From assembly GCF_001904725.1 (NCBI RefSeq), contig NZ_MRCE01000014.1:125449-189448 (forward strand): a DNA stretch of 64,000 bases, given 5' to 3'. The position numbers and the translations under genes are program-made. The stretch comes from Phormidium ambiguum IAM M-71. Its GTDB lineage: Bacteria; Cyanobacteriota; Cyanobacteriia; Cyanobacteriales; Aerosakkonemataceae. The notes below the pieces were generated by a model, which saw only the letters and a program-made list of their open reading frames with translations, did no database searches and had not been told where the DNA came from. Below, in pieces: positions 6,098-40,921 of the stretch (the stretch's first letter is position 1; every line of letters starts with the position of its first letter).

Positions 6098-7726
6098 TTA
6101 CTCGTGAACTGTGCCATCAGGCATAATTGCACCAACCAATTTAGTATAGTATAAGTTAGCTCCTCCGAGTTTAGCTCCAGTCAAATTTGCGCCAGATAAA
6201 TCTGCATTATTTAAGTCTGCTGCACGGAGATCAGCTTCTTTTAAATCTGCCCCTCTTAATTTGGCACTAGAGAGCTTTGCTTCACGCAGGTCTGTTTTAT
6301 TCAAAATAGCTACACTCAGATCAGCGCCAACTAACTCTGCTTTAATTAGATTGAATCCAGTCAGATTGGCACAACTCAAATTAATCTGATTCATATAGGC
6401 TCCCTGAAGGTTTACACCACTTAAATTAGCTCCACTCAAATTAGCAGAATTTAGTTTTGCTTTACTGAAATTTGCTCCTTTTAAGTTTGCTTCAGTTAAG
6501 TTTGCTCCACTCAGGTCTGCACCACTTAAGTCAGCATTTTGCAAGGATACACCAGGAGCGATTAAATATGCTCCTGCCTCGCTAGGATTAAAACCTACAG
6601 GAAATCTAGTATTTTCATCATAAAGAGCTTGTTGTAACTTCACTCCTTTAAGGTTAGCTCCGTAAAAGTCTACAACTTGGTTGTTGTATTGGCTAGTTCC
6701 TCGAAGGTTTGCTTTAGTTAGATCGGCTCCCATTAGGTTAGCATTTCTTAGTTTTGCCGAGCGTAAATCTGCCTCTATTAGTATTGCTTTACTGAGATTA
6801 GCGTTATTCAAGTTGGCGCTAATTAGTTTAGCTTTACTCAGGTTTGCATTTCTTAAGTTTGCTTCAGTTAGCTTTGCATCTTGTAGATTAACTTTACATA
6901 AATCTGTTTCAATGAGGTTAGCTCTTCTCATATCTGCATTAACTAGATTGACTTCACTTAAGTTGGCGTTTTTTAGGTTTGCATTTTCTAGATTTGATGA
7001 ATGTAAATGCGCCTTATAAAGATCTGCATTCTCTAGATTTGCTTCACTCAAATTTAGACTACTAAAGCTGCCATAACTTAAATTTGCTCCAGTTAAGTTA
7101 GCTCTACTTAAGTTAAATTCCCAACTAATACTTTTTTTACTAAAATCAGAGGTTGCTAGGTTAATTCCTGTAAAATCTTTCTCTCCTTCTTGACAACGCA
7201 TCAAAAATGCTTCAGCACTAATAGCACGGTTTTCATCAGTCTCATCTCTCATTAATAACAGCAACATTCTCTCAATTTTGAATTCTTCATCAGTAAAAAC
7301 TGTAAATTCTGTTTCTTGTTCAACAGCATCAATTTCTTCATTGGTAAAAGTTACAACCTGCTCATTATTATTCGTTAATTCCTGAGATGCTTCAAATGTT
7401 GGGGTGGGGGAATCTTGTTGTAATTGTCGATCGACCCTTGCAAAAAACTCCTTAACTATTTCCGCATCTTCTTTTGTATCATTGTTAGGAGGCAAATCGA
7501 GAGGTTGGGAGTTGAAAGTGCGATCGCTAAGCTGCTTTTTAAGCTCAGTAAACTCCCCTTTTAAAACATCCCATTCTTGTAATTCTGGTCTATTATTAAA
7601 CTGTTCTGTCACCAAGTCTAATTGACGTTTCAGCCCTGTATAATATTTTTTAACCATAAGAAGTTGCTGTTCGAGTTGTTCAATTCTCGAAAACAACGAG
7701 CCTAAATTCACTTGTTGCTCATTCAT
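6098..7726 (-). CDS. pentapeptide-repeat protein with N-terminal coiled coil
   Basis: Protein of 542 residues. Residues ~1-75 are a heptad-rich coiled coil (LFSRIEQLEQQLLMVKKYY). An acidic linker follows, then a helical region around 150-175 (ERMLLLLMRDETDENRAIS). From about 190 to 535 there are many A(D/N)LxX pentapeptide repeats, which fold as a right-handed quadrilateral beta-helix. The repeats are interrupted near residues 340-395 by a non-repeat module containing YDENTRFPVGF and GAYLIAPG. It ends in MPDGTVHE, an ending shared in part with the second pentapeptide protein of the window. There is no signal peptide, so it is presumably cytosolic. The biochemical role is unknown; the coiled coil suggests oligomerisation or a protein scaffold. 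Confidence 0.88.
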   Translation of the reverse strand: MNEQQVNLGSLFSRIEQLEQQLLMVKKYYTGLKRQLDLVTEQFNNRPELQEWDVLKGEFTELKKQLSDRTFNSQPLDLPPNNDTKEDAEIVKEFFARVDRQLQQDSPTPTFEASQELTNNNEQVVTFTNEEIDAVEQETEFTVFTDEEFKIERMLLLLMRDETDENRAISAEAFLMRCQEGEKDFTGINLATSDFSKKSISWEFNLSRANLTGANLSYGSFSSLNLSEANLENADLYKAHLHSSNLENANLKNANLSEVNLVNADMRRANLIETDLCKVNLQDAKLTEANLRNANLSKAKLISANLNNANLSKAILIEADLRSAKLRNANLMGADLTKANLRGTSQYNNQVVDFYGANLKGVKLQQALYDENTRFPVGFNPSEAGAYLIAPGVSLQNADLSGADLSGANLTEANLKGANFSKAKLNSANLSGANLSGVNLQGAYMNQINLSCANLTGFNLIKAELVGADLSVAILNKTDLREAKLSSAKLRGADLKEADLRAADLNNADLSGANLTGAKLGGANLYYTKLVGAIMPDGTVHE

Positions 7727-38371: not shown

Positions 38372-38806
38372 ATGGCTTACCGCAATCCTACTCCTACTGT
38401 TGACATTATTATTGAGTTGGTTGATCGATCGCAACGTCCGATTATCTTAATTGAACGCAAAAATCCTCCTTTTGGTTGGGCTATTCCTGGCGGTTTTGTT
38501 GATTATGGTGAGTCTGTAGAAACTGCTGCTGTTAGGGAAGCTGAGGAGGAAACAGGGGTGAAGGTGGAGTTGGTGGAACAGTTTCATGTTTATTCTGACC
38601 CGAATCGTGACCCGCGACAGCATACTTTAAGTGTGGTTTTTATTGCGATGGGTAAGGGGGAACCTCAAGCTGCTGATGATGCGAAAAATTTGGGGGTTTT
38701 TGAGTTTTGGCAGTTGCCAGAAAATCTCTGTTTCGATCACGATCGGATTATGAGAGACTATTGGCGTTATCGGTTTTATGGTTTGCGTCCTAGTTTAAGT
38801 TTTTGA
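38372..38806 (+). CDS. Nudix hydrolase
   Basis: Protein of 144 residues with a complete Nudix box: [18 protein letters not shown] then EEETGV, fitting Gx5Ex7REUxEExGU. The region before it ([19 protein letters not shown]) is typical of ADP-ribose or general NUDIX pyrophosphohydrolases. The substrate cannot be assigned: ADP-ribose, dihydroneopterin triphosphate and oxidised nucleotides are all possible. The C-terminus ([13 protein letters not shown]) is conserved in cyanobacterial members. The stop codon TGA (38804-38806) lies inside the ttgaaccgc edge of a dispersed repeat, so the repeat fixes the end of the protein. Confidence 0.88.
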
Positions 38807-38862
38807 ACCGCTCCAGACGCAGAGGACGCAGAGAGTTTTTTTTGAACCGCAAAGGACGCACT
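38803..38862 (+). repeat. two tandem copies of the 'ttgaaccgc' dispersed repeat
   Basis: Copies at about 38803-38834 (ttgaaccgctccagacgcag then aggacgcagagag) and 38841-38862 (tttgaaccgcaaaggacgca). A further palindrome-rich stretch (cactagcgaagcaatgcgcg) follows. The first copy includes the Nudix stop codon. Confidence 0.75.
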
Positions 38863-38997
38863 AGCGAAGCAATGCGCGATAGCGCTATAGAGCGCGAAGA
38901 GAAGAGAAAAGAAGAGAGTAGAAGAAGGATTTTGGGAATACTTGTTGATGGAGCGATCGCAAGTGTTATTTTTTAGGGTGCGATCGAATATTGAATT

Positions 38998-40245
38998 ATG
39001 GATGCTAGTGAACTTTTAGAAAGATACGCCCAAGGTGAACGGAAATTCCATTCTGCAAAGCTTGGTGGAGAAGACTTAAGAGGTGCAGACCTCAGAGAGG
39101 TAGACTTACAAAATGCAGATTTAACTGGGGCAGATTTAAGCGAAGCAAACTTGAGCAAAGCAAAACTGTACAGTGCAAACCTCAGTAAAGCATCTCTAAA
39201 TAGTGCAAATTTGTCTGGAGTACAGATATCTTCTGCAAATATAAGCTTTGCAGATCTTGGGGGTGCTAATTTAAGCAATGCCTCAATAGAAAGCTCTAAC
39301 TTAAGTAGTACCAACCTAGATAAGGCAAATTTGAATGATGCAAATCTGTATTATGCAAATTTAAGTGGAGCGTCTTTAAATGGGACAGTTCTCAATGGAA
39401 CAAACTTAAGTGGAGCAAATCTTACAAATTCAGATTTATATGAAGCAAATCTCAGTAGAGCAAATCTACGTGGTGCAAAGCTTCAAAATGCAAATTTAAC
39501 TGCAACTAAACTTAGGGTTGCCAATCTGGAAAGTCTCGATCTTTCTGGCTTAAACTTAGCTGGTGTAGAGTTAATAGCCGCAGACCTGAGCAAAACTAAT
39601 TTTACTAATAGCTGTTTACAAGGAGCAAACTTAGAAAGAGCTAATCTAAATGGAGCAATTTTAATTGGTTCAGATCTAAGTCAAGCCATTTTAAAAAGGG
39701 CTGATTTGACAGGTGCAAATATTTATGGCGCTAATCTTCAAGATGCAGATTTAAGCGGTGCAAGAATGCCTGATGGAAAAGTCTACAATCAGGATAATCT
39801 TAAAAGAGAAAATGCTAAATTAGTTTCGCAAAAAGATACAGAAAAACCAATGTCACTAGAGCGCAAAGTTATCTTTACAGAATCGGCCCCTTCACCTGTT
39901 GGCCCTTATAATCAAGCAATTCTTGCTAGTGGACAAATGCTGTTTGTTGCTGGACAAATTGCGATCGATCCCAGATTAGGCGATGTCGTCTACAAAGATG
40001 ATGTCACAAAACAAACAGAACGAGTCATGGCTAACATTGAAGCCATCTTAACAGCCGCAGGTGCTAAATGGTCAAACGTAGTAAAAACCTCTGTCTTCCT
40101 GGCAAACATGAATGATTTTGCCGCCATGAATGCAGTCTATTCCAAATACTTTGACGAAGCAACTGCCCCTGCACGCGCTTGTGTAGAAGTCTCCCGTCTA
40201 CCCAAAGATGTCTTAGTAGAAATTGAGTGTATTGCCATGATTTAA
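38998..40245 (+). CDS. pentapeptide-repeat protein fused to a RidA (YjgF/UK114) domain
   Basis: Single open frame of 415 residues. Residues ~20-256 are A(D/N)LxX pentapeptide repeats (right-handed beta-helix). That part ends MPDGKVYNQ at ~257, close to the MPDGTVHE end of the other pentapeptide protein in this window. A polar linker of ~20 residues follows. From Met285 (ATG at 39850) a complete RidA domain runs to the end: [27 protein letters not shown], and [19 protein letters not shown] with the substrate-binding Arg. RidA hydrolyses reactive enamine/imine intermediates from PLP enzymes. RidA proteins are normally stand-alone at ~130 residues, so the RidA part could also be made from the internal ATG. 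The fusion looks genuine in this sequence but needs confirmation. Confidence 0.82.
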
Positions 40246-40249
40246 AATT

Positions 40250-40302
40250 GGTACGTAGTTGGGCTTTAGCCCTTCTTTAGGGCTAAAGCCCAACTACGTA
40301 CC
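40250..40302. repeat. REP palindrome, left of RAYT
   Basis: Perfect inverted repeat, 24-bp arms starting ggtacgtagttgggctttag, 5-base loop tcttt. It begins 4 bases after the stop of the pentapeptide-RidA gene, so it could also act as its terminator. Confidence 0.88.
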
Positions 40303-40330
40303 TTTACCTTTACTTCCTACCAAACTAATT

Positions 40331-40921
40331 ATGTATATATATCGGAAATTGACACCAGAACAACGGGTAAAAGTTGTAGAAGAAAGGTTGGCGAAAGGAT
40401 ATCCTCCTCATTCTCCACCTCATCCAGTGCAAGATGCTGAATTTTACCATATCACTGTCAGTTGTTTTGAGCATAAACCTCGGATTAATACTCAGGAACG
40501 TCGTCACCAAATTTTAGATATTATATTTAATAAATTTATTTTAGATGGTATACAAATTGATGCTTGGGTGGTGTTACCAAATCATTATCATCTGTTAGTT
40601 CGTAATATTAATATGTCACAGTTAAGTGTGTTATTTCGTTCTATTCATGGCCCGTTAGCTCGACAATGGAATCTGGAGGATAATATTAGAGGTCAAGTAT
40701 GGTTTTCGTTTAGCGATCGCGCAATTCGTTCCGAAAGGCACTATTACACAACTATTAATTATATTCACTATAATCCTGTCAAACATGGTTGGACAAAATC
40801 TCCTTATGATTGGTCATCGAGTAGCGTACATTGGTATTTGGAGTATCAAGGGAGAGAATGGCTAAGAAGTACTTGGGTAGAATATCCGGTAAAAGATTAT
40901 GGAAAAGGTTGGGATGATTAA
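40331..40921 (+). CDS. REP-associated tyrosine transposase (RAYT, Y1/HUH family)
   Basis: Protein of 196 residues from the ATG at 40331; an open frame extends upstream into the REP palindrome but that is not protein-like. HUH motif HYHLLV in VVLPNHYHLLVRNIN and the RAYT signature INYIHYNPVKHGW, with the catalytic tyrosine upstream (HYYTTINYIHYNP). FYHITVSCFEHKP is the N-terminal beta strand of the Y1 fold. RAYTs nick single-stranded REP DNA and are usually single-copy, immobile or slowly mobile. The gene looks intact. Its REPs directly border it on both sides. Confidence 0.88.
   Translation: MYIYRKLTPEQRVKVVEERLAKGYPPHSPPHPVQDAEFYHITVSCFEHKPRINTQERRHQILDIIFNKFILDGIQIDAWVVLPNHYHLLVRNINMSQLSVLFRSIHGPLARQWNLEDNIRGQVWFSFSDRAIRSERHYYTTINYIHYNPVKHGWTKSPYDWSSSSVHWYLEYQGREWLRSTWVEYPVKDYGKGWDD

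Follow-up and report, generated by a model that had tools for sequence, protein, structure and literature searches.

RidA forms trimers, with the ligand bound between subunits, and belongs to a family of imine deaminases (PMC4960622). Domain combinations comparable to the gene analyzed here, which joins a pentapeptide-repeat β-helix to RidA, have been described in DUF71 (Dph6) proteins, which possess two RidA domains at their C-terminus (PMC3541065), and in SopA-type proteins, in which a pentapeptide domain is joined to a catalytic domain (PMC8145042). As far as the accessible parts of these sources go, DUF71 proteins share with our gene the C-terminal fusion of RidA to another protein but are eukaryotic and have a different partner, whereas SopA-type proteins share the N-terminal pentapeptide domain on an enzyme but differ in that both the enzyme and the setting are unrelated. 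We know of no nested start in DUF71 (Dph6)-RidA proteins. The N-terminal part of CcmM is a β-helix trimer. CcmM with its internally started short form is, to the extent covered by the available part of its description, the nearest parallel in kind: CcmM58 and CcmM35 are the long and short forms of one gene, and the short form has been attributed to an internal ribosome entry site (PMC5784247). Our gene resembles CcmM in having a conserved in-frame internal start codon (102 of 102 fusions that are their genome's single RidA copy). It differs in that the domains are unrelated, the short form would be a complete housekeeping enzyme, and the start is lost just where a second copy exists.

No paper describing a pentapeptide-RidA fusion was found in the literature searched, including under the L-PSP, YjgF and reactive-intermediate naming, in line with the sequence-only reading of this locus, to which no such description was known. 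Publications naming both pentapeptide repeats and RidA appear unrelated by their titles and the beginnings of their abstracts. The words deaminase, endoribonuclease and fused are absent, by word search, from the available text of a review on pentapeptide proteins (PMC8145042), and no mention of RidA was found in the available part of PMC8557916. Protein databases probably list these fusions as predicted entries, so the architecture may be on record without comment.

The window, i.e. the whole 64,000-nucleotide stretch of Phormidium ambiguum IAM M-71 DNA that was analyzed, contains the fusion as a single open frame from ATG to stop (Table 1), as had been read from the sequence alone: one uninterrupted frame with a β-helix up to residue ~256 and a full RidA domain. 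Both parts score far above their curated cut-offs. Nine stretches of the protein match Pentapeptide PF00805 (229.8 bits versus a cut-off of 20.2), residues 295-414 match Ribonuc_L-PSP PF01042 (149.3 bits versus 27.3), and the NCBIfam model of Rid family detoxifying hydrolases, TIGR00004, scores 160.4 bits (cut-off 106.25). The RidA domain (residues 285-415) is complete and contains both the PAR motif and the GPY loop, as does free RidA (YjgF/YER057c/UK114), from which the fusion differs in its 284-residue N-terminal extension and nested start, the internal ATG being in frame with the fusion ORF. Judging by the motif, R393 would correspond to R165 of AtRidA.

Table 1. Features of the fusion locus in window coordinates.
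Feature	Positions	Strand	Size	Basis
NUDIX gene directly upstream of the fusion	38372..38806	+		PF00293
Pentapeptide β-helix-RidA fusion ORF	38998..40245	+	415 aa, 44.0 kDa	Fused homologs
Pentapeptide-repeat β-helix, residues 1-256, exchangeable cassette	38998..39765	+		PF00805, AF2, Foldseek, exchange data
Linker, opening with the conserved MPDG motif (residues 257-260)	39766..39849	+		Alignment, pLDDT
Internal ATG at the RidA start, putative second translation start	39850..39852	+		Met rule, synonymous-site structure signal
RidA domain and nested ORF with PAR motif (Arg393)	39850..40245	+	131 aa, 14.2 kDa	PF01042, TIGR00004, PDB relatives

A monomer model was computed with AlphaFold2 (AF2) from an alignment of 67 fused proteins. 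Read in ten-residue blocks, pLDDT is 94-99 for residues 1-260 and 74-93 from residue 311 on, where the RidA fold is predicted, while values below 50 at residues 267-304 mark most of the linker as a low-confidence, disordered stretch. The predicted β-helix, presumably of the right-handed quadrilateral type, has a strand position at each fifth residue up to ~256 and an N-terminal cap helix at residues 3-11. Foldseek matched the RidA part to YjgF/RidA structures and the β-helix part to pentapeptide structures, the best being HetL (3du1, E = 1.1e-16). The other 66 fused ORFs in the alignment are 47-64% identical to the window's fusion, and M257 and P258 are invariant across the 67 sequences, a statement valid for this selection, in which 20 of the 86 available fused relatives, several of them degenerate, were left out. 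The repeat consensus, the cap helix and the best structural match thus recall the cyanobacterial pentapeptide proteins HetL, Alr5209 and Np275/Np276, but the fusion has a C-terminal enzyme domain, its β-helix is exchanged between species, and it scores 160.2 with the HetL profile NF047416, under the curated cut-off of 260. The score for the Alr5209 family NF052603 (162 versus a cut-off of 125) is made up of four stretches of a 113-position repeat profile in a 415-aa protein and may be inflated. The net charge of the β-helices (median -4, range -16 to +9) lends no clear support to DNA mimicry.

The neighborhood upstream of the fusion also holds a 4-alpha-glucanotransferase gene on the opposite strand, and the downstream neighbor, again on the opposite strand, encodes the carbamoyl-phosphate synthase large chain. 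Short repeats of the type ACGCAGAGGACGCAGAGAG occupy the gap between the NUDIX gene and the fusion (38807-38997). Right behind the RidA stop there is a perfect 24-base inverted repeat with a 5-base loop (40250-40302), and the ORF after it (40259-40921, 220 aa), which has no Pfam match at E ≤ 0.001, presumably resembles a REP-associated tyrosine transposase. Elsewhere in the window, the minus strand carries a second pentapeptide-repeat ORF (6098-7726, 542 aa), which is extended at its N-terminus and has AIMPDGTVHE as its tail; MPDG tails are seen again in several of this genome's pentapeptide proteins. When the RidA protein is used as a query, the fusion is the sole match in its genome at E ≤ 1e-22. 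The second PF01042 match there is a 144-aa Rid-superfamily protein without the PAR motif (L002, 1312-1746, minus strand), whose neighbor we take to be an alcohol-dehydrogenase-like gene. By these sequence criteria, no true RidA other than the fusion was found in this genome.

Proteins with both domains had been proposed as a search target in cyanobacterial proteomes. In 100 relatives, a RidA search yielded 103 places in 96 genomes (E ≤ 1e-22); the four genomes with no RidA at this threshold are G025, G039, G073 and G080, and G025 and G080 are 98-99% complete. An open fusion of at least 300 codons is present in 28 of the 100, being the sole RidA in 22 of the 28, and in a 29th (G093) it is cut at a contig end. 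Across the order, 129 of 388 genomes match the fusion at E ≤ 1e-60. The 97 of these outside the first 100 relatives were chosen for that match and then censused for RidA; the 259 genomes without such a match were censused only where they belong to the first 100. Two of the 208 RidA entries, in G040 and G062, were below 45% identity and were dropped, leaving 206 entries in 193 genomes. Also not counted as RidA were weak Rid relatives at 35-36% identity in G357, G244 and G142 and the 144-aa relative in the window's genome. In G040 (locus L191) and G062 (L194), of family f32, a second Rid-like gene of 34-35% identity lies downstream of the free ridA. Overall, 120 fused copies were found in 116 of the 193 genomes examined, 97 of the 193 having been chosen for a match. 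The β-helix is long in 106 copies (102 genomes) and reduced to a short remnant in 14. The column analysis around the ATG used a stricter cut (118 copies), the genus test and final counts all 120 copies, and the thresholds for class and Met were set by us.

Among 386 genomes sampled across the phylum, the 47 that match at E ≤ 1e-60 all belong to the same order; as far as sampled, the fusion appears to be order-specific, at a threshold that could miss weaker fusions elsewhere. We give negligible probability to an artefact of assembly or sequencing or to a frameshift error, since the same architecture occurs in 116 genomes, including the named records of Argonema antarcticum (L003) and Richelia sinica (L004); these fusions, with the 66 aligned relatives, rule out chance as well. 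The same count led us to reject the fusion as a lineage oddity. Two genes kept separate in all close relatives would have spoken against the sequence-only reading; instead, the fusion is conserved.

A NUDIX gene lies upstream of ridA in 26 of 75 free-RidA loci, within 50 bases in 18 of the 26, and upstream of the fusion in 13 of 28 fused loci, some loci being cut short. Because it abuts free ridA in several relatives, the NUDIX gene marks the probable ancestral ridA site, and the simplest reading of the sequences is that a pentapeptide gene arrived between NUDIX and ridA and then fused with ridA. In G005 and G068, the adjoining pentapeptide gene is separate from ridA. In-frame remains of the β-helix end (e.g. 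AIMPDGE) precede the start of free ridA in G065, G029 and G017, and the same fossils occur in second copies of G093 and G076 and in a Nostoc MAG locus (L005). The RidA tree, a weak one of ~127 residues, implies a minimum of 16 changes between the fused and free states. In Argonema antarcticum (L003, 2107-2280 and 3368-5635), a truncated RidA start, a pentapeptide-only gene with an MPDGE tail and an intact fusion stand in a row.

The suggestion, made from the window's sequence, that the internal ATG might give free RidA is backed comparatively, by a Met rule that held in all 80 single-RidA genomes of the hold-out and by the synonymous-site signal described below. The Met pattern was first seen in the first 100 genomes, and the 97 further genomes served as the hold-out. 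All 102 fusions that are their genome's only RidA (22 discovery, 80 hold-out) have an ATG at the RidA start, and 91 of them have a long β-helix. Fourteen genomes have a fusion together with a further RidA copy; in 12, a fused copy lacks the Met, and each of these genomes has another, ATG-bearing RidA. G372 is only an apparent exception, since a second fused copy with the ATG exists there, cut by a contig end, and the tandem fusions of G277 and G291 keep the ATG in both copies. Counted by genus, Met loss occurred in 8 of 9 multi-copy genera and in none of the 37 with a single copy (Fisher p = 3e-8; the genera are not independent). Five supported independent pairs in the RidA tree bear on the rule: on average 4.1 agree, 0 contradict and 0.9 show no difference (sign test, median p = 0.125). 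Conservation is 100% in the Met column, compared with 60% at position -1 and 91% at +1, and in 4 of the 102 copies, the window's included, the register of the ATG is shifted yet the codon is kept (PMSLERK here, NMTTRK elsewhere).

These observations may be set against an explanation in which only the full-length fusion is made and the Met is a structural residue or a relic of a two-gene fusion. Joining two ORFs naturally leaves a Met, and each of the 102 single-copy fusions has an intact GPY loop and an intact PAR motif, both as this explanation would have it. We nevertheless consider it improbable. Met-less fusions with an intact GPY loop do exist (G076, G093, G244, G249 and G372), just where another RidA is present in the genome; the Met stays while its register shifts and the surrounding linker changes; and a signal at synonymous sites is not expected from constraint on the residue. 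Moreover, by the methionine aminopeptidase rule the N-terminal Met of a protein starting with MT is expected to be removed. A structural role for the Met is therefore unlikely: free RidA starting with MT would be without it, and some Met-less copies still have an intact GPY loop.

The predicted fold of the 60 bases around the internal ATG has a median energy of -2.9 kcal/mol in the 102 single-copy fusions. These ORFs contain 556 further in-frame ATGs, at which the median is -9.7, and at the starts of 80 free ridA genes it is -3.5. Met-less copies are almost as open at the RidA start (-4.0 kcal/mol, n = 12, p = 0.40), so the AT-rich linker itself accounts for part of the low structure. For this reason, we resampled synonymous codons, with offsets and Met-less copies as controls. 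The mean z of the folding energy is +0.95, +1.00 and +1.12 at -15, 0 and +15 from the ATG, positive in 90-92% of genes near it, and drops on both sides, lying between -0.94 and +0.23 at every offset of at least 60 bases; in the 12 Met-less copies it is just +0.13. Because the genes are related, these z values are given without a p value. By these predicted folds, synonymous codons keep the mRNA open around the internal ATG, and not so in copies lacking it. There is no strong Shine-Dalgarno sequence at the internal ATG (median -1.8 versus -2.0 at control ATGs; -1.1 in the window's own gene), and free ridA starts are likewise without such a signal (+0.2).

The Met rule and the open ATG would be accounted for equally well if free RidA were translated from a short mRNA of its own, transcribed from an internal promoter, rather than by initiation inside the long mRNA, and internal transcription starts are numerous in cyanobacteria. 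However, the linker and the end of the β-helix differ between close relatives, and a conserved promoter within such fast-changing sequence would be surprising; we therefore regard this route as rather unlikely. We consider it likely that the locus is a nested dual-product gene, encoding a 44-kDa fusion and a 14-kDa free RidA, with the β-helix as an exchanged, locus-specific module.

Evidence for exchange comes from 266 pairs of fused genes with RidA dS < 0.3, in which the β-helix is less than 70% identical in 217 and at least 75% identical in 41 (here and in all exchange comparisons, the pairs counted are not independent). In 161 of the 217 differing pairs β-helix identity is 50-60%, and the median dS in the 217 is 1.37 for the β-helix and 0.23 for RidA. 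We followed nucleotide identity along the locus in two group profiles and seven individual pairs. For 79 pairs of different β-helix class with RidA dS < 0.25, the median identities in order along the locus are 0.82 (300 bases upstream), 0.63-0.73 (β-helix without its first 20 and last ~20 codons), 0.81 (linker), 0.95-0.96 (RidA) and 0.67 (200 bases downstream). The corresponding values in 19 same-class pairs are 0.76, 0.85-0.93, 0.88, 0.94-0.96 and 0.65. Taken together, the profiles show that the flanks are not specially similar overall and that the β-helix is the outlier. Between the window's genome and its congener G001, identity is 0.91-0.92 upstream, 0.61-0.80 in the β-helix, 0.94-0.95 in RidA and 0.70 downstream. 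In family f12, G020 and G087, of one genus, have RidA and flanks in common but not the β-helix, whereas G087 and G047, of two genera, have a β-helix dS of 0.04 and a RidA dS of 0.62. With the β-helix nearer than RidA across genera, transfer between lineages is needed. At 70% core identity, the 106 long copies fall into 46 classes, 15 of them among the 42 copies of family f2. The sequence comparisons thus indicate that the β-helix is exchanged between species as a cassette beside a near-identical RidA.

As a control we used another pentapeptide gene, built similarly, which was found in 20 of the 27 genomes searched for it. It is 88-100% identical across 38 pairs that differ in the class of the fused β-helix, so exchange as a general habit of pentapeptide genes is not supported. 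A second control gene, present in just 8 of the 27, allowed one comparison (G000/G001, 92%). Nor is another pentapeptide gene of the same genome supported as the donor in the case of G000, the best among the matches listed being 46% identical.

Such a pattern might also arise without selection for variety, if the β-helix were dispensable baggage at a recombination-prone site, with tandem duplication and differential loss (birth and death). This neutral account is a serious rival to recognition, of real if lesser probability: tandem pentapeptide or fused copies occur in G003, G004, G007, G277, G291, G357 and G372, the β-helix has been lost or shortened in several lineages, with fossils left behind, and the RidA tree requires its 16 fused/free changes. 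Set against it are the β-helix of G087 and G047, which points to transfer and not merely to sorting of old copies, the stability of the control gene, the long β-helix kept in 102 genomes, and purifying selection within classes, the median dN/dS being 0.34 in the β-helix (41 same-class pairs) and 0.05 in RidA. Between classes (22 pairs), variation is greatest at the outward positions i+1 and i+2, which are 38-39% identical, and smallest at the inward position i (84%). This variable outer face, together with the exchange, suggests recognition of something variable. Most likely, the β-helix recognizes a variable partner or tethers RidA to a partner, and we infer that on the RidA trimer it serves as an exchangeable module for recognition or scaffolding.

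Fusions in genomes with a second RidA are informative in this respect. Of the 120 fused copies, 7 lack the GPY loop (GPY[NS]Q) and 5 lack the exact triplet PAR; every one of these is a Met-less copy from a multi-copy genome. Most of the long frames with a changed GPY loop are still open (e.g. ~440 codons in G002 and G008, whose RidA parts show a dN/dS of about 0.18, with dN 0.025 and dS 0.14), which suggests that the long protein may have a use of its own, independent of RidA catalysis. Counter-cases are G006 and G325, in which the β-helix frames are shortened or broken by stops. A more specific proposal, which we offer tentatively and hold to be doubtful, is that the β-helix is a specificity determinant selected for variety, in partner, phage or kin recognition, and RidA a constant trimerizing anchor; the nested start would then guarantee the enzyme under any cassette, and the anchor role would outlast loss of the start and, in 7 of 12 cases, loss of the GPY loop where a second RidA exists.

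In the dual-product reading that we prefer, the ancestral NUDIX-ridA site would have seen a pentapeptide-repeat ORF join ridA in frame, with the ridA start codon retained. The gene would then give the long β-helix-RidA protein and, from the internal ATG, free RidA supplying the cell's imine deaminase. Three β-helices on one RidA trimer, as pictured in the sequence-only reading, are plausible; should free RidA be produced as well, mixed trimers become the likelier form, long and short subunits joining in trimers that would bear zero to three β-helices. The short product would secure the deaminase supply whatever cassette stands upstream, the long product would display the β-helix, and the β-helix with its variable outer face would be swapped between species by recombination.

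If true, a widely conserved detoxification enzyme would here be encoded by a nested gene that is itself conserved, and in which the loss of the internal start just where a second RidA exists amounts to a natural experiment. The exchange of a repeat-domain cassette beside a nearly invariant enzyme, which these loci show, is otherwise associated with recognition systems. The fusion also links one of the many cyanobacterial pentapeptide proteins, most of which have no known function, to a partner whose function is known, and so makes a function testable.
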